A stretch of 20,691 nt of DNA, from the IMG/VR virus record IMGVR_UViG_3300032285_000834, positions 1 through 20,691 of that record; one strand, given 5' to 3'. The notes beneath the pieces are model-generated. The model saw only the letters and a program-made list of their open reading frames with translations. It did not search any database and was not told where the DNA came from. Origin of the DNA: a virus. This document shows positions 1,698-18,246 of the stretch, piece after piece. The first letter of the stretch is position 1, and every line of letters starts with the position of its first letter. A program made the position numbers and the translations under genes.

Positions 1698-4600
1698 TTA
1701 ATTTAATCCTTTAAGTTTATTTTCTAAAGCCGCTAATCTTGCGGATATGTCTTGCTGTTGTGCAAGCTTGGTTTCTAAAGCTTCTACTTTATCAGACAGT
1801 TGTTGTACTGCTTTTGTTAAAACAGCAATATACGATGGATAATGAATAGTCTTAATACCCTTTATGTCACCAACTGCGTAGTCAGCATCATAAAATACCA
1901 AACTTGAACCTGTGGGTATAATACATTCAACTTCATCAGCAATAAAGCCGTAGCCTTTTTGCTGTTTAGGGTCTGCTTTTAGTTTATAAGATACTGGACG
2001 TAATTTATTAATAAAATCTAAGCCTAAATCCGTATCTGTTATTTCGTGTTTTACACGAATATCAGAAGGACTTGTTGTACGTACATCTAAAGTTATAGTA
2101 CTTCCTGACCCTGTAGTACCTACATAGGTTCCTGTAATACTAGTAGTTGTGCTACCCAATATACTACCAATATTATTAGTAGTAAGTGCAGAACCTGAAT
2201 TGCAATTAAATAGTGCAAAAGCACCAAATAAGTTACCACCAAATACCCATGTCGTTCCGTTCCAATACATTACTTGACCAGTAGCAGTAGCACCAGTTGG
2301 TAATTGTGCTAGAGTAATCGCGCTTTGCGCAGCCAAAGTACCAAGCGTTGGTTTACCGGTTAGGTCTGTGTAAGCTCCACTGGTTGCTACTGTTGCTAGT
2401 GTTGGCCTACCAGTTAAGTCTGCGTAAGCTCCACTGGTTGCTACTGTTGCTAGTGTTGGCCTACCAGTTAAGTCTGCGTAAGCTCCACTGGTTGCTACTG
2501 TTGTTAGGGTTGTCCAGGTTCCGTCATTACGCAAGAAACTGGTTGTTGAACCACTAGGTGGTGCAATTCCTGCAGTAACACTTCCCCAGTAAAACCTACC
2601 CCATTGTGCACTACTAGTACCCAAGTTCATTTTAACAGCGCCAGTATTGGTTGCATTACCACTAAAACTAGGAGCAGTATCAAATGAATTGGTAATATAT
2701 ACTCCTGCTGTATATGTTGTACCCGTAAATCCAGTAGCTATAGCTAGCCCAACCCCGTTAGTACTTATACCTGGAACAGCTAGTGAAGTTCCTAGCGTAT
2801 ATCCAAGTCTTAGGTGTGTTGCACCAGCTTTATTGATATAAATACTATCATTAGCACTATCTGTAGTAAACATATTACTACCAACTATAGTAGTACCGGT
2901 AGCTGCAAAGTATCCTAATTGATATTGAGTGCTACTAGTTACATTTCCTGTATTAACAGTAGCTCCAGCAGCTATGCCATCTAACTTAGAAGCATATGTA
3001 CTAGTCATATATCCATTAATACTAGCAGTAGCAGCTGCTATACTAATAACTGGAGCGGCTCCACCACTAGAAACTACAGGTGCAGTAGCTGTTACTGAAC
3101 TTACTAATGCTGTACCACTAGAAGCTGCTGTTAGTCTACCTGTTGCATCTACTGTGAAACTACCATACGTATATGAGCCAGCTGTTACAGTTGTAGTAGC
3201 TAAAGATATAGTACCTGTTGTAGTAATTGTACCACCACTTAAACCTGTACCTGCAGTTATACTAGTTACAGCTGGTGGTGTAGCCCATGTTCCATCATTA
3301 CGTAAGTATGTATTTGTTGCACCAGCTGGTGCTAAAATACCGGTGGTTGCAGTTCCCCAATAGAATTTACCCCACTGAGCAGTGCTAGTACCCAAATTCA
3401 TTTTAGTAGTAGTACTAGTTGCATTACCGCTAAAACTAGGGGCTCCGTCAAGTACATTAGTAACTAATACTCCTGCAGTATATGTTGTACCTGTATAACC
3501 TGTAGCTATAGCTACTGATACTGCGTTAGAGCTTATACCAGGAGCTCCAATAGTTGGTAAATTGTAAGAACTACGAAAATGTGTTGCACCAGTTTTATTA
3601 ATATAAATACTGTCATTAGCACTGTCTGTAGTAAACATACTACTACCAGCTATAGTAGTACCAGTAGCTGCAAAGTATCCTAATTGATATTGCGTACTAC
3701 TAGTTACGTTACCTGTATTAACAGTAGCATTAGCTGCTATATTATCCAATTTACCTGCATATGCAAGTGTCATGTAACCATTATTAGCAGCTGTAGCTGC
3801 TGCCATACTAATAGCTGGTGTAGTACCACCACTAGATACTATAGGTGCAGTACCGGTTACAGAAGTTACAGGTGCAGTACCACTAGAAGCTGCGGTTAAT
3901 CTACCTTGTGCATCTACTGTGAAATTACCATAAGTATATGAACCTGCTGTTACTGTAGTATTACTTAAACTAAGGGTAGGGGCAACCCACGTACCGTCGT
4001 TGCGTAAAAAGGTAGTTGTACTACCAGCAGGAGCAGCAATACCTGCACTATTAGTACCCCAATAGAAGGTTTTCCATGGAGCATTACTAGTACCTAAATT
4101 CATTGAAGCTGTACCTGCAGCTATACCACTGGCTGCTCCACTAAAACTAGGTGCACCATTAAACTGATTACTTATTAATACACCAGCAGTATAACTACCA
4201 GTAGTATTATTAAAACCACTTGCTATAGCAACTGAAACACCTGTTGAACTAACTCCAGGTGCAACTATTCCTGGTAAATTATGGGTTAGTCGTATATCTG
4301 TTACGCCTGCTTTATTGACAAATAAACTAGTACTTTCAAAAGTCAATAAACTACTAGAGCTTAATGCATTACCTGTTGCAGCATAGTACGCTAATTGATT
4401 TACTGTACCTGCATTGACAACACCACTAGCACCGGTACCAATACCATCAAGTTTTGTTTTGTCAGCAGCGCTCATTGAACCGGCTGCAGAAGTAGTAGCT
4501 GCATTAATGCTAATAACTGGTGTTGTAGTTCCAGTTGCTACACTAATAGGCAAAGTACCCGATACACTTGTAACGGTACCAGTTCCTCCGCTAGGTACTG

Positions 4601-7600
4601 CCCATGTCCCATCATTGCGTAAAAAAGTAGTTGTACTACCAGCAGGAGCAGCAATACCTGTACTATTAGTACCCCAATAGAAGGTTTTCCACGGAGCATT
4701 ACTAGTGCCTAAGTTCATTGAGGCATTGCCATTAGTATTACCGCTGGCTGCTCCACTAAAACTAGGAGAGCTGTTGAATTGATTGCTTATTAGTACACCA
4801 GCAGTATAACTACCAGTAGTATTATTAAAACCACTTGCTATAGCAATATTACCGCCAGTAGAGCTGACACCTGGTGCAATTATTCCTGGTAAATTGTGTG
4901 TTAGTCGTATATCTGTTACACCTGCTTTATTACCATATAAACTACTATCTTCAAAAGTTAATAGATTAGTTGGACTTAAAGTAGTACCTGTACGTGAATA
5001 GTACGGTATTTGGTATTGAGTACCGCTATTTAATAGTGGATTATTATTAAGATCGGTAACTCCTGCTAGTCGTACTACATTTTCAAAAACATTAGCATCA
5101 TTAGTAACATAAGCATCCACTGAACTATCAAAACTACAACCAACTAAATTAATTTTATTATTAATATTAGAAATTGTAGGTCTAGCAGCATCAGGAATAT
5201 ATGTACCTATTGCTTTAAATCCACAACCATTAATAAAATTATTAAATGTATTAGCTGCAACAAGCGACTCTAAGTATATGTTAGCAGTTACATAGTTTGT
5301 ACTACTAACACGTACAAATGAACATCCTGAAATATTATTGGTAACTCCTGGTTTAACGCTAGAGCTACTAATCCATAGATCAGTTCCACCTATATTTGCC
5401 TCAAAATAAACTCCATCAAGTGAAACACCAACAGCACTTTCTATAGCAGTTGAGCCACTGGGTTCACTGATTCGCAATCCCCAGTTAGAAGTACTACCAG
5501 TAGTTGTGCCATTAGCTTCAAAAGATCCACCCTGCATAGTAAATACGCCAGGACCAAGAACCCATCCACCGTATATAGAGTTTGCTCCAAACTCACAATT
5601 AAGCATTGTAATAGCGTTTGGACTACTAGTGTAGTTTCCTCCAGTAATACGTTCAACTAAAAATCCGCGTTGATTAAAACGGAATTCACAAGCTGAAAAA
5701 GTAGAGCTTAAGAAGTTAGCTCCATAAAAACCATAATCCCAGTTTCCAAACCAACAAGCCTCAACATATACGTAAGCACCATTGCTGATACTTAATCCTT
5801 TTCCACTTCCAGACCCTACAAAGCCTAAGTCTGTTATATGAGTATATAAGTTTGGATTTATTGGTAGTCCAGAGTAACCAGCAATTGTTAAACCATTACC
5901 TGCCCCAACCTGTTTAATAATACTAGCCCCTACACCTTCTCCAATAAAATGAACTCGATAATTGGGGTCTGATCCAGCAGGTGCACTATAAGTTAAACTA
6001 GAAGTTAAGTTATATACTCCGCGTGGAAAATATACAACTCCGCCGGTAGTTGCGGCAGTATTTATTGCAGTTTGAATTGCTGTAGTATCATCGGTACTTC
6101 CATTACCCAAAGCACCGTAGTCTCGAACATTATAGCGACGATCTGAGTATCCTCCAGACGCGCTTACAGATCCCCACGTACCATCTCCACGTAATACATC
6201 AGTAGCTACATTAGTAAAAGGCTTTAATCTAACAATTGTTGGAGTACTAGTATAGGTAGTATTAGTACCATTAGTAAGTACGCCTGTCCATGTACCTGTA
6301 TTGTAATATACAGATATTGAATTAGTTCCAGATAATACACCGATTGTTGGTTTAGTAAGTACAAATGTTCCGCTAGCTAGTGTTCCTGTTGTAGATACTT
6401 GCCACGCATTATTTATTCCTGCGCTAATAGCACTTGCAAACTGTGCCATTGTATTAAGGAACTCACTATCATATCCTACTATAAAAGAATATGTAACACC
6501 TTCTAATATAATAGTAAATGTAAGATCACCTACAGTAGTTAAATTACTTACACTAACTACCAACTTTCCTTGTGTTCCAGGTACATTAATTACGCCTGCT
6601 GTAGTTGGGAAGTCAATTCCTCGAAAATAACCAATACCAGACTTACTACCAGCTGCACCGCTTGTTCCAGTAACAGCATCAAAAGCATATCCATCACCAG
6701 TACCACCAGCAGTAAAAGCAGATCCAGTAGCATTACCCATATTTATAGTAACACCACTAGTAGTCCTTGGACTAATGCTATTATCTACGTCAATTCTAAT
6801 TGCTGCATCAGGATTACTGGTATTGTTAATATTACCATAAAATAATCTTCCGCCTCCGCTAGATACTGCAGAAACAGCGTTTGCTTTATCTAAGGTATTA
6901 CTTAGAATATTGCTTCCTGAGGGTGCACTACTTTCAATCCATACAGGATTAATAATATTAGCATTAGCACTAATACCAATTACAGCAGTATCTGCACTAG
7001 TACCACCACTTCCACCAATAGTTAAAAACCTAATATTGTCGCTTCTAAAGGCTTCTATCCTATTAGTACCTATTGGCGGGGTACTTACAGTTCCAGGAGT
7101 AACAGTTTTATTAATCTCAATACGTTGGGCTGAAACATTACCAGTAACTAAACTACCGCGTGCTGTAATATTGTTGAAATAGGCATTGCCGGTATCACGT
7201 TGAATTTGCCAACCTAATGTAGTTGCATTATAATTATCACTTTGGATTGTAAGTGGAAATCCTTGTGTTAAATAAGGCGTACCCCAAGTAACTGTATTAG
7301 CTGGAGTATTATAAATACCATCAATTGCCCATAAACTTTCTCCTGCTGCAGGTAACGTAACAGTAGCTGACCAACCTGTAGGAAGCGAACTTGATCCAGT
7401 AGTAGGATTTGGGGTAACTGTTGCAGCTGTTGTAGCTGCACTTATTGCTTGGCTTTGCGTTTTATATGCAATTCTAGCACTATCTCCCGGAATACCACCT
7501 ACACCTTCCATTCTAATAGGTAAATCCCAAGTAAAATTAGTAGCACCAGAAGCTTTAGTTCCGGTGCTACCCCATACAGGATCAGTACCTACCGGTATAC

Positions 7601-8021
7601 TACTAATATTAGCATACCAAGTGCTTGGAGTAGTAGCACTTGCTGCAGGTGTAACAGGAATATTTAAGCTTCGTTTATAAATTATAGTTACACTGCTGCC
7701 TCCTGCTGTAGTAGGAGTTGCCGAAGCCAAACTTTGAACTGTATAAACATTAGGATCAATTTCACTAATAAAAGCAAATTTGACATAATAAGGAGTGCCT
7801 GCTACTAATTCAGTACCATCCGCTAATTTTGGTATAGTAATAGACAAACTTAAACCATCAAATACTAAATTAGAATTTGATGGAGTAAATTCTGCTGATG
7901 TGTCGCACCATACTTTTATTTTAATTAAATCATCCCTAATGTCGTTATCTCTAAGAATATCAACTGGGGTGTCTAATTTTAATATTAATGATTTTACGCC
8001 TGCGGATAAGGTTGCTGACAT
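1698..8021 (-). CDS. Giant tail fibre / receptor-binding protein with beta-helix and S74 chaperone
   Basis: A 2107-residue fibre. Residues 1-110 look like a fibronectin III-like or beta domain. Residues 180-330 resemble the distal part of gpJ proteins (GDSARIAYKTQSQA, LWAIDGIYN, GWQIQRDTGNAYFNNITARG). A pectate-lyase-3-type beta-helix starts at residue 631 (NVRDYGALGNGSTDDTTAIQ, then GGVVYFPRGVYNL) and runs to about 985. It may bind or cut surface polysaccharide. Residues 997-1836 hold four related modules each ending LRNDGTW, and 1837-1890 three 18-residue repeats (ATSGAYADLTGRP). The C-terminus is a peptidase S74 intramolecular chaperone. Ser1986 and Lys1991 in SDIRVKHEI form the self-cleavage dyad, so the last 122 residues should be released after trimer folding. 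AAGGA precedes the ATG. Whether the beta-helix is enzymatic cannot be told from sequence alone. Confidence 0.92.
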   Translation of the reverse strand: MSATLSAGVKSLILKLDTPVDILRDNDIRDDLIKIKVWCDTSAEFTPSNSNLVFDGLSLSITIPKLADGTELVAGTPYYVKFAFISEIDPNVYTVQSLASATPTTAGGSSVTIIYKRSLNIPVTPAASATTPSTWYANISSIPVGTDPVWGSTGTKASGATNFTWDLPIRMEGVGGIPGDSARIAYKTQSQAISAATTAATVTPNPTTGSSSLPTGWSATVTLPAAGESLWAIDGIYNTPANTVTWGTPYLTQGFPLTIQSDNYNATTLGWQIQRDTGNAYFNNITARGSLVTGNVSAQRIEINKTVTPGTVSTPPIGTNRIEAFRSDNIRFLTIGGSGGTSADTAVIGISANANIINPVWIESSAPSGSNILSNTLDKANAVSAVSSGGGRLFYGNINNTSNPDAAIRIDVDNSISPRTTSGVTINMGNATGSAFTAGGTGDGYAFDAVTGTSGAAGSKSGIGYFRGIDFPTTAGVINVPGTQGKLVVSVSNLTTVGDLTFTIILEGVTYSFIVGYDSEFLNTMAQFASAISAGINNAWQVSTTGTLASGTFVLTKPTIGVLSGTNSISVYYNTGTWTGVLTNGTNTTYTSTPTIVRLKPFTNVATDVLRGDGTWGSVSASGGYSDRRYNVRDYGALGNGSTDDTTAIQTAINTAATTGGVVYFPRGVYNLTSSLTYSAPAGSDPNYRVHFIGEGVGASIIKQVGAGNGLTIAGYSGLPINPNLYTHITDLGFVGSGSGKGLSISNGAYVYVEACWFGNWDYGFYGANFLSSTFSACEFRFNQRGFLVERITGGNYTSSPNAITMLNCEFGANSIYGGWVLGPGVFTMQGGSFEANGTTTGSTSNWGLRISEPSGSTAIESAVGVSLDGVYFEANIGGTDLWISSSSVKPGVTNNISGCSFVRVSSTNYVTANIYLESLVAANTFNNFINGCGFKAIGTYIPDAARPTISNINNKINLVGCSFDSSVDAYVTNDANVFENVVRLAGVTDLNNNPLLNSGTQYQIPYYSRTGTTLSPTNLLTFEDSSLYGNKAGVTDIRLTHNLPGIIAPGVSSTGGNIAIASGFNNTTGSYTAGVLISNQFNSSPSFSGAASGNTNGNASMNLGTSNAPWKTFYWGTNSTGIAAPAGSTTTFLRNDGTWAVPSGGTGTVTSVSGTLPISVATGTTTPVISINAATTSAAGSMSAADKTKLDGIGTGASGVVNAGTVNQLAYYAATGNALSSSSLLTFESTSLFVNKAGVTDIRLTHNLPGIVAPGVSSTGVSVAIASGFNNTTGSYTAGVLISNQFNGAPSFSGAASGIAAGTASMNLGTSNAPWKTFYWGTNSAGIAAPAGSTTTFLRNDGTWVAPTLSLSNTTVTAGSYTYGNFTVDAQGRLTAASSGTAPVTSVTGTAPIVSSGGTTPAISMAAATAANNGYMTLAYAGKLDNIAANATVNTGNVTSSTQYQLGYFAATGTTIAGSSMFTTDSANDSIYINKTGATHFRSSYNLPTIGAPGISSNAVSVAIATGYTGTTYTAGVLVTNVLDGAPSFSGNATSTTTKMNLGTSTAQWGKFYWGTATTGILAPAGATNTYLRNDGTWATPPAVTSITAGTGLSGGTITTTGTISLATTTVTAGSYTYGSFTVDATGRLTAASSGTALVSSVTATAPVVSSGGAAPVISIAAATASINGYMTSTYASKLDGIAAGATVNTGNVTSSTQYQLGYFAATGTTIVGSNMFTTDSANDSIYINKAGATHLRLGYTLGTSLAVPGISTNGVGLAIATGFTGTTYTAGVYITNSFDTAPSFSGNATNTGAVKMNLGTSSAQWGRFYWGSVTAGIAPPSGSTTSFLRNDGTWTTLTTVATSGAYADLTGRPTLATVATSGAYADLTGRPTLATVATSGAYTDLTGKPTLGTLAAQSAITLAQLPTGATATGQVMYWNGTTWVFGGNLFGAFALFNCNSGSALTTNNIGSILGSTTTSITGTYVGTTGSGSTITLDVRTTSPSDIRVKHEITDTDLGLDFINKLRPVSYKLKADPKQQKGYGFIADEVECIIPTGSSLVFYDADYAVGDIKGIKTIHYPSYIAVLTKAVQQLSDKVEALETKLAQQQDISARLAALENKLKGLN
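2350..2511 (-). repeat. Three tandem 54-bp repeats in the fibre gene
   Basis: Three head-to-tail 54-bp units (2350-2403, 2404-2457, 2458-2511). The middle unit is almost identical to each neighbour. Each encodes 18 residues containing VATSGAY(A/T)DLTG(R/K)PTL. This is a common phage fibre stalk repeat. Frame-preserving length allows copy-number change without breaking the gene. Confidence 0.9.
2510..5035 (-). repeat. Four diverged long modules inside the fibre gene
   Basis: Four related segments lie roughly at 4570-5035, 3965-4420, 3260-3720 and 2510-2945. Each encodes, in order, a Q(Y/L)..(Y/F)(A/S)..G start, a T/F-(D/E)-S core, a (K)(A/T)G.T..R segment, an 'AGV.I(T/S)N' strand, 'PSFSG', 'MNLGTS', 'W..FYWG' and '(F/Y)LRNDGTW'. 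The first two are close to each other (stretches of over 100 bases with few differences, about 620 bases apart). The last two pair likewise (about 765 bases apart). This suggests duplication in two steps. Confidence 0.85.
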
Positions 8022-17395: not shown

Positions 17396-17424
17396 ATTAT
17401 ACCATGTGACCACGCTCTTGTCAA
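17396..17424 (-). promoter_or_regulatory. Perfect sigma70 promoter for the tape measure / tail tip operon
   Basis: On the minus strand TTGACA (17419-17424) is followed after exactly 17 bases by TATAAT (17396-17401). A TG one base before the -10 box adds the extended -10 motif (TGGTATAAT). An A/T-rich stretch lies just upstream of the -35 box. The start site would be near 17389, giving a leader of about 47 bases with CAGGAG five bases before the ATG at 17342. The promoter follows a strong terminator, which makes it the likely driver of the genes from 17342 down to 1414. Confidence 0.88.
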
Positions 17425-17442: not shown

Positions 17443-17475
17443 CAAAAAAGCCCGCTAATTTTTAACTAGCGGGCT
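17443..17475 (-). terminator. Intrinsic terminator between chaperone and tape measure genes
   Basis: A 9-bp GC-rich stem on the minus strand (AGCCCGCTA at 17467-17475 with TAGCGGGCT at 17449-17457) has a 9-base A/T loop and is followed directly by T6. The 5' arm is the last codons of the chaperone extension and the stop codon lies in the loop. A strong promoter follows 19 bases downstream of the T-tract, so transcription of the tape measure gene restarts there. Confidence 0.9.
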
Positions 17476-17812
17476 CTTGCGTCTTTTTCTTATTATTGAT
17501 TTCCTCTGATCGTACGTTATCAATTAAGCGTATTAGCATAATTATAAACTTATGTTCAGAAGGTTCAACTTCTGTTGCTTCCAAAACATCTTTAATACCT
17601 ATTAAGGATTTACCTAAATAGCTACCACTCATGGTATCCCACTCGTCTCGTAACATTCTGTAAGCATTAAATGCTTGCTGCACTTCTAGTGGGAAATCAT
17701 CAAATTCAACTGGAATCTCAGATTCTTCTGGTTCGTTGCCTAATGCTTCACACATTTCAAAATACTGGTCTTTGGTCATTGCCACACCCATATTTTGAAT
17801 ATAATTAACCAA
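17462..17812 (-). CDS. Tail assembly chaperone, frameshift extension (gpT-like part of GT)
   Basis: This is the -1 frame continuation of the upstream chaperone gene, probably made only as part of the 261-residue fusion that slips at 17848-17854. As a stand-alone ORF it would start at a TTG (17810-17812) with no ribosome binding site, inside the stimulatory hairpin, so independent start is unlikely. Key stretches are MTKDQYFEMCEALG, an acidic linker (EPEESEIPVEFDDFP) and the helical LEVQQAFNAYRMLRDEWDTM followed by YLGKSLIGI. These resemble C-terminal chaperone parts seen in other phages. In the lambda model the extension contacts the major tail protein while the common part binds the tape measure protein. 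The last codons form the 5' arm of a terminator, so gene end and transcript end coincide. Confidence 0.75.
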   Translation of the reverse strand: MVNYIQNMGVAMTKDQYFEMCEALGNEPEESEIPVEFDDFPLEVQQAFNAYRMLRDEWDTMSGSYLGKSLIGIKDVLEATEVEPSEHKFIIMLIRLIDNVRSEEINNKKKTQEPAS

Positions 17813-17839
17813 CTGCAGATTTACTTGCTGGAGTTGGCT
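17807..17839 (-). promoter_or_regulatory. Frameshift-stimulating hairpin
   Basis: Eight bases after the slippery heptamer the mRNA can form AGCCAACT (17832-17839) paired with AGTTGGTT (17807-17814). This is 8 bp with one G-U. A C-C mismatch follows, then three more pairs (CAG/CTG) around a 9-base loop. The spacing is right for a -1 frameshift stimulator. The stem spans the stop codon of the upstream chaperone and covers the TTG at 17812. Confidence 0.65.
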
Positions 17840-18246
17840 GTCGAAAAGTTTCCCAAGTCTGTGACTTGTTCGCTGATAAATGCATCAAAATTGCTGGAAT
17901 TTTTCATCAAGTATAATGCATTTTCAGCAGTATAACCCAACTCAGAATCCATATCTTTACCAGACAAATCTACTGGTGCTAGTTGTTCTAAGTAGCTCAA
18001 CTTAAGGCCACTCCATCCTTTAACAGCATTTTCAACATAAAGCTGTAAGAATAAGTCTTCATTGAATTCTTCAGAAGCCTGTCGATTCTTAAAACTTGTT
18101 TTTGTAGATTTCTTACGAATCGACAAAAGCGTTTCACGAGACAAAAAAGCCAAGTCAACTACAAAACCAGGCATACCAGGATATTCTACCTGAACTGATT
18201 TTGAAGGAACTAGCAGCGTTTTTAAAGAGAGAGTTGTATTAGTCAT
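17821..18246 (-). CDS. Tail assembly chaperone (gpG-like)
   Basis: A 141-residue protein made before frameshifting. It has the usual features of the upstream chaperone of the G/GT pair: an N-terminal beta segment (LSLKTLLVPSKSVQVEYPG), then FVVDLAFLSRETLLSIRKKS, a helical centre with FNEDLFLQLYVENAVKGWSG, and an acidic C-terminal helix. It binds the tape measure protein and recruits tail tube subunits. It lies between the major tail protein and tape measure genes, the conserved place for this pair. A GGGAAAC slippery site lies nine codons before its stop. The ATG at 18246 has no recognisable Shine-Dalgarno sequence: the upstream stretch is A/T only. Translation may therefore be weak or use another mechanism. 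Confidence 0.82.
   Translation of the reverse strand: MTNTTLSLKTLLVPSKSVQVEYPGMPGFVVDLAFLSRETLLSIRKKSTKTSFKNRQASEEFNEDLFLQLYVENAVKGWSGLKLSYLEQLAPVDLSGKDMDSELGYTAENALYLMKNSSNFDAFISEQVTDLGNFSTANSSK
17848..17854 (-). other. -1 ribosomal frameshift slippery heptamer GGGAAAC
   Basis: In the frame of the upstream chaperone gene the codons read TTG GGA AAC, giving the X XXY YYZ heptamer G GGA AAC. The downstream frame is exactly -1 relative to it and is open from just after a stop at 17885-17887 down to 17462, so it spans the slip site. Slipping gives a 261-residue product: 133 residues of the first protein, then 128 in the -1 frame starting LFDSQLQQ. Lambda uses GGGAAAG at the same place between genes G and T. 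Confidence 0.85.

Follow-up and report, generated by a model that had tools for sequence, protein, structure and literature searches.

A conserved −1 ribosomal frameshift very probably joins two tail assembly chaperones in a virus genome, with a probable +1 counterpart in T5-type phages

Two tail assembly chaperones are very probably joined by a −1 programmed ribosomal frameshift, in the manner of lambda G/GT, in the window, that is, in the whole stretch of 20,691 nucleotides analysed here (IMG/VR record IMGVR_UViG_3300032285_000834). In itself this feature is a convincing but ordinary case, and the more interesting result is the opposite direction of the shift in the T5-type phages. We consider it probable that this homologous pair is joined by opposite shifts in sister lineages, with a −1 site of the form XXXYYYZ in the freshwater clade of the window and a +1 site UUU_CGU or UUU_CGA at the same place of the protein in T5 and the other Demerecviridae. 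A one-base indel in a run of T would toggle between the two arrangements, and the +1 shift of T5 would be an overlooked case with a PA-X-type site.

The features of the junction are collected in Table 1. Near its end the upstream ORF reads ..GAC TTG GGA AAC TTT TCG.. on the minus strand, placing the heptamer in phase, and the second ORF overlaps the first in the −1 frame. This frame is bounded upstream by a TGA (17887..17885) and at its end by a TAA (17464..17462), and is open across the heptamer, so that the joined product has 261 residues with the junction LGN|LFD. The phase of the heptamer, the extent of the open frame and the length of the fusion had all been described in the initial annotation and were recovered unchanged; the comparison with relatives set out below lends strong support to its central proposal, a programmed −1 frameshift between two tail assembly chaperones. 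That comparison is what the case rests on, since about 0.08 in-phase XXXYYYZ heptamers (Y = A or T) are expected in the overlap from the rate in the window's own genes (0.4% of positions), which makes a single site modest evidence when taken alone.

Table 1. Features of the chaperone junction and its downstream neighbourhood; positions are those of the window.
Feature	Position	Strand	Remarks
Upstream ORF, tail assembly chaperone, lambda gpG-like, 141 aa	18246..17821	minus	stop TAA 17823..17821
Open region of the −1 frame; after the shift, predicted C-terminal (gpT-like) domain of the 261-aa fusion	17884..17462	minus	PHROG 3914
Slippery heptamer G_GGA_AAC (putative −1 shift site)	17854..17848	minus	in phase; conserved in relatives
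Hairpin, candidate stimulator, 8 nt 3′ of the heptamer	17839..17807	minus	−11.1 kcal/mol; outer stem conserved in nearest clade
Possible starts of a separately translated downstream product	17812..17777	minus	TTG 17812 (in stem); ATG 17791, GTG 17785, ATG 17779 (outside)
Terminator-like hairpin GCCCGCTA/TAGCGGGC + T6, 9-nt loop	17474..17444	minus	overlaps downstream ORF stop; read from sequence
Sigma-70 consensus promoter TTGACA-N17-TATAAT	17424..17396	minus	12/12 match; between chaperones and tape measure (start 17342)

The identity of the two genes is given by profile matches and by their position. The upstream ORF matches PHROG 313 (E 1.2e-14, profile positions 28-140 of 258) and the downstream ORF matches PHROG 3914 (E 7e-13), both families being annotated as tail assembly chaperone in 24 of 24 members. 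The PHROG 313 profile spans both domains, as the downstream ORFs of T5-type phages match its positions from about 170 to 258. In addition, the pair lies between the genes of the major tail protein (PHROG 3575) and the tape measure protein (1606 aa). The upstream protein was modelled with AlphaFold at a pLDDT of 85; a Foldseek search with this model gave no significant match (E-values above 0.3), and the two best matches of a second look were YqbN (3klu, Z 5.9) and the HK97 tail assembly chaperone (2ob9, Z 5.0), with the next at 2.9 and all Z below 8. These matches are no more than suggestive of a gpG/HK97-gp13-like chaperone fold. For the downstream domain the fold search returned weak and unrelated matches only, and a profile search against solved structures gave no match. 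Among cultured phages, the nearest relatives are of the T5 type (Demerecviridae), at 27-38% identity, and a scan of bacterial genome contigs found no relatives and hence no host. Elsewhere in the window, positions 1698..8021 of the minus strand encode a tail fibre-like protein of 2107 aa, which contains a pectate-lyase-like domain and carries a Peptidase_S74 intramolecular chaperone at its C-terminus.

Relatives were gathered using peptides of the upstream protein and not the sequence of the junction. GGGAAAC is present in phase in all 80 nearest IMG/VR relatives and, more generally, each of the 93 distinct −1 junctions contains exactly one in-phase XXXYYYZ heptamer in the overlap. It is GGGAAAC in 85 of them, AAATTTT (A_AAT_TTT) in four (carried by L225-L230) and AAAAAAC (A_AAA_AAC) in another four (L267-L273), where it directly precedes the stop. 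The contig L059, which had appeared to be a +1 locus lacking TTTCG, was rejected as such: it is truncated and its junction reads GGGAAAC. The initial annotation had named, among the findings that would refute the frameshift, relatives in which both ORFs persist without the heptamer. Formally, such relatives exist, namely eight −1 relatives and the T5 group, yet the finding stands, since the eight use other canonical heptamers and the T5 group has a +1 frame with its own invariant site.

Further evidence comes from the pattern of substitutions. Counting differences between nearest neighbours, 206 of the 268 before the heptamer lie at codon position 3 of frame 0, none lies inside the heptamer, the overlap gives a mixed pattern, and after the upstream stop 164 of 306 and then 100 of 167 lie at position 3 of the −1 frame. 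Selection on these sequences thus switches frame at the position of the heptamer.

Several other explanations of the conserved heptamer have to be weighed against this pattern. It might be kept merely because the chaperone needs Leu-Gly-Asn, as the residues DLGNF are indeed conserved in the close clade. However, it is the codons that are fixed at the heptamer and not the residues alone: GGA and AAC show zero synonymous variation in 40 representatives, against a background use of 23% and 40%, respectively, and the preceding Leu is written only TTG or CTG, which together make up about 22% of background Leu codons. Moreover, the Gly-Asn of the T5-type relative L274 is written GGC AAC, and relatives whose residues changed have gained other canonical heptamers (AAATTTT, AAAAAAC), leaving this explanation a minute chance. 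Gene decay, or an error of sequencing or assembly, deserves mention in that frame breaks between neighbouring ORFs are a common artefact, but the same −1 overlap recurs in 93 distinct junctions from many samples; the relatives refute this reading, the likelihood of which is practically negligible. The same vanishing weight goes to slippage of the RNA polymerase in place of the ribosome. A run of four T does adjoin the slip site, but it is interrupted in the relatives L235 and L248 (AAC TTC), and the invariant element is GGGAAAC, in which there is no long homopolymer.

A small chance, though the largest among these alternatives, is left to a downstream ORF translated alone, by re-initiation or internal initiation at ATG 17791 or 17779, with no role for the heptamer. 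In its favour, 85 of 88 junctions retain ATG 17779, and T5-like records mostly give the downstream gene its own start. Against it, the roughly 20 codons between the slip site and ATG 17779 show protein conservation in the −1 frame; the part of the −1-frame selected stretch that precedes the first downstream ATG could be coded only by the fusion or from the TTG start. The absence of synonymous variation in the heptamer also counts against independent initiation. In addition, the Met column is not universal (Val in L077, L267 and KEY, Phe in phi 3 and L261), and few candidate downstream starts in the relatives have a Shine-Dalgarno-like match, in a scan that found none for most upstream genes. 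A separate product from ATG 17779 in addition to the fusion is possible. The initial annotation was wrong in taking TTG 17812 as the only downstream start, as ATG 17791, GTG 17785 and ATG 17779 share its frame and lie outside the stem; its suggestion that the hairpin blocks independent translation is likewise unsupported, given these other starts and the conservation of ATG 17779.

The hairpin that follows the heptamer is likely to be a clade-specific stimulator of frameshifting. In agreement with its earlier description, it consists of 8 bp (17839..17832 with 17814..17807) and 3 bp (17830..17828 with 17818..17816) around a 9-nt apical loop; this loop holds the upstream stop, and the 3′ arm contains TTG 17812. 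Compared with 200 dinucleotide shuffles, its folding energy has a z of −3.4 if the segment begins behind the heptamer, and of only −1.5 once the heptamer is included in the shuffled segment. RNAalifold returned no consensus structure for 62 gap-free junctions; the pairs of the window's own structure were then counted against slid and synonymous-codon controls. In the nearest clade (58 distinct junctions), the window's 11 pairs are 80% paired, as compared with 4-41% in the slid controls, and folding is stronger than that of synonymous recodings (mean −12.2 versus −5.6 kcal/mol, mean z −2.8). One pair clearly covaries, with both bases changed from A-U to G-C in 14 sequences. Of the two elements whose recurrence in related phages was at issue in the initial annotation, the heptamer or a canonical substitute is thus found in 93 of 93 junctions, and the hairpin holds in part: the outer 8 bp carry the signal of conservation in the nearest clade, whereas the pairing of the inner 3 bp is not kept among close relatives, and this part was discarded as a conserved element. 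A second group of relatives has a weaker stem at the same place, and some more distant relatives bearing the heptamer have no stem (e.g., L257 and L262).

In the proposed mechanism, most ribosomes would translate only the 141-aa chaperone, and a minority would slip back by one base on G_GGA_AAC, the P site changing from GGA to GGG and the A site from AAC to AAA. The hairpin would aid slipping in the window's clade, and the slipped ribosomes would continue in the −1 frame to produce the 261-aa fusion. In analogy with lambda, the tape measure protein would be coated by the short form, and recruitment of the major tail protein would fall to the long form, which is the rarer one. The slipping, its efficiency, the part of the hairpin and the roles of both products are what we infer; the anatomy of the junction, the conservation of its site and the change of selected frame come from sequence and comparison.

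The 12/12 promoter match in front of the tape measure gene is kept in 83 of 89 distinct −1 relatives, and none of the T5-type group has a perfect TTGACA-N17-TATAAT promoter there; transcription of the tape measure gene may be separate from that of the chaperones. Sets of about 20 or more tRNA genes are present in several relatives with near-complete genomes. They comprise tRNA-Asn(GTT) in −1 members and both tRNA-Phe(GAA) and tRNA-Arg(ACG) in the +1 member L224, and such phage-encoded tRNAs could be the slipping ones. As separate observations on these arrays, ARAGORN predicts tmRNA genes beside large tRNA arrays in three related phages, L319, L320 and L323 (tags ANDTQFALVA, ANDQVYALAA and ANDEVFALAA), and the array of a +1-group phage includes a tRNA gene with anticodon CTA, which would read the amber codon (L322:16717-16791).

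The downstream ORF stands in a +1 relation to the upstream one in T5 and in every other member of the Demerecviridae that was examined, as well as in a few IMG/VR contigs (loci L082-L087, L093, L218, L223, L224, L233, L234, L261 and L274-L287). All 42 distinct +1 junctions contain an in-frame TTT CGT (38) or TTT CGA (4), located from 0 to about 17 codons before the upstream stop and flanked by codons that vary; in the background, TTT accounts for only 58% of Phe codons and CGT or CGA for only 42% of Arg codons. In this group, too, differences before the site are biased to position 3 of frame 0, and beyond the site they peak at position 3 of the +1 frame. Neither a slippery heptamer nor a common structure was seen at the +1 junctions. 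In bacteria, UUU_Ynn is known to be prone to +1 shifts, and the cassette of influenza PA-X is UCC_UUU_CGU (PMC5009743); two Pectobacterium phages carry TCC TTT CGT exactly, and the junction of L218 is ACT TTT CGT. A −2 shift was discarded for this group, since tRNA re-pairing, as reasoned from the sequences, would be poor after −2 and good after +1 (UUU to UUC). Taken as a whole, the T5-type pair is probably an unrecognised +1 programmed frameshift. No paper naming the site was found in the part of the literature covered. The idea is not wholly new, however, since one T5-like record, that of Salmonella phage Sw2, already contains an annotated joined product of a frameshift, the length of which fits a +1 shift.

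The mixed alignment of the −1 and +1 groups was too diverged for scanning. In a tree of 69 representatives, the direction of the shift changes once, at a branch with support 97 (the tree is unrooted and has several long branches). The homologous junctions read ..TDLGN|LFDSQL in the window, ..TDIGNF|V.. in the +1 relative L274 and ..DLENF|VQSQL in L233. The window itself does not have the T5-type arrangement, as its frame is −1 and its TTT is followed by TCG. At the nucleotide level, AAC TTTT CGA of the −1 clade differs by one T from AAC TTT CGA of Vibrio phages, and an indel of this T would turn the −1 shift that is needed into a +1 shift.

Compared with known systems, the window resembles lambda G/GT in gene order, in overlapping ORFs, in a (here predicted) −1 shift shortly before the first ORF ends and in a short and an extended chaperone. 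The heptamers, G_GGA_AAG in lambda and G_GGA_AAC here, differ in the last base only, so that the A-site codon is AAC instead of AAG; the window further differs in the well-formed 3′ hairpin of its clade and in proteins that belong to the T5-type families PHROG 313 and 3914. The same G_GGA_AAC has been named as the −1 shift site for g-t expression in the haloarchaeal virus HCTV-1 (PMC5009743), which shares heptamer and use with the window but is unrelated and infects archaea. In the Acinetobacter phage Loki, gp12/gp13 have AAAAAAC adjoining the stop (PMC5313236), a heptamer and placement matching the relatives L267-L273 and not the window's own heptamer. The T5-type pair shares with the window homologous proteins (25-38% identity), the same pair of genes and the same place, but has a +1 relation, TTT_CGT/CGA and no heptamer.

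The window adds a well-supported case of the lambda type with AAC as second codon, which is useful since in E. coli A_AAC performs less well than A_AAG as the second codon of a shift site (PMC5009743). The +1 reading is a directly testable prediction for T5, a phage in standard laboratory use, in the group of which a genome paper on a T5-like phage describes the tape measure chaperone as being, as in T5, without a predicted frameshift signal (PMC6256483). More generally, these results suggest that the need for two forms of the chaperone is conserved, while the shift site, and even the direction of the shift, is exchangeable.
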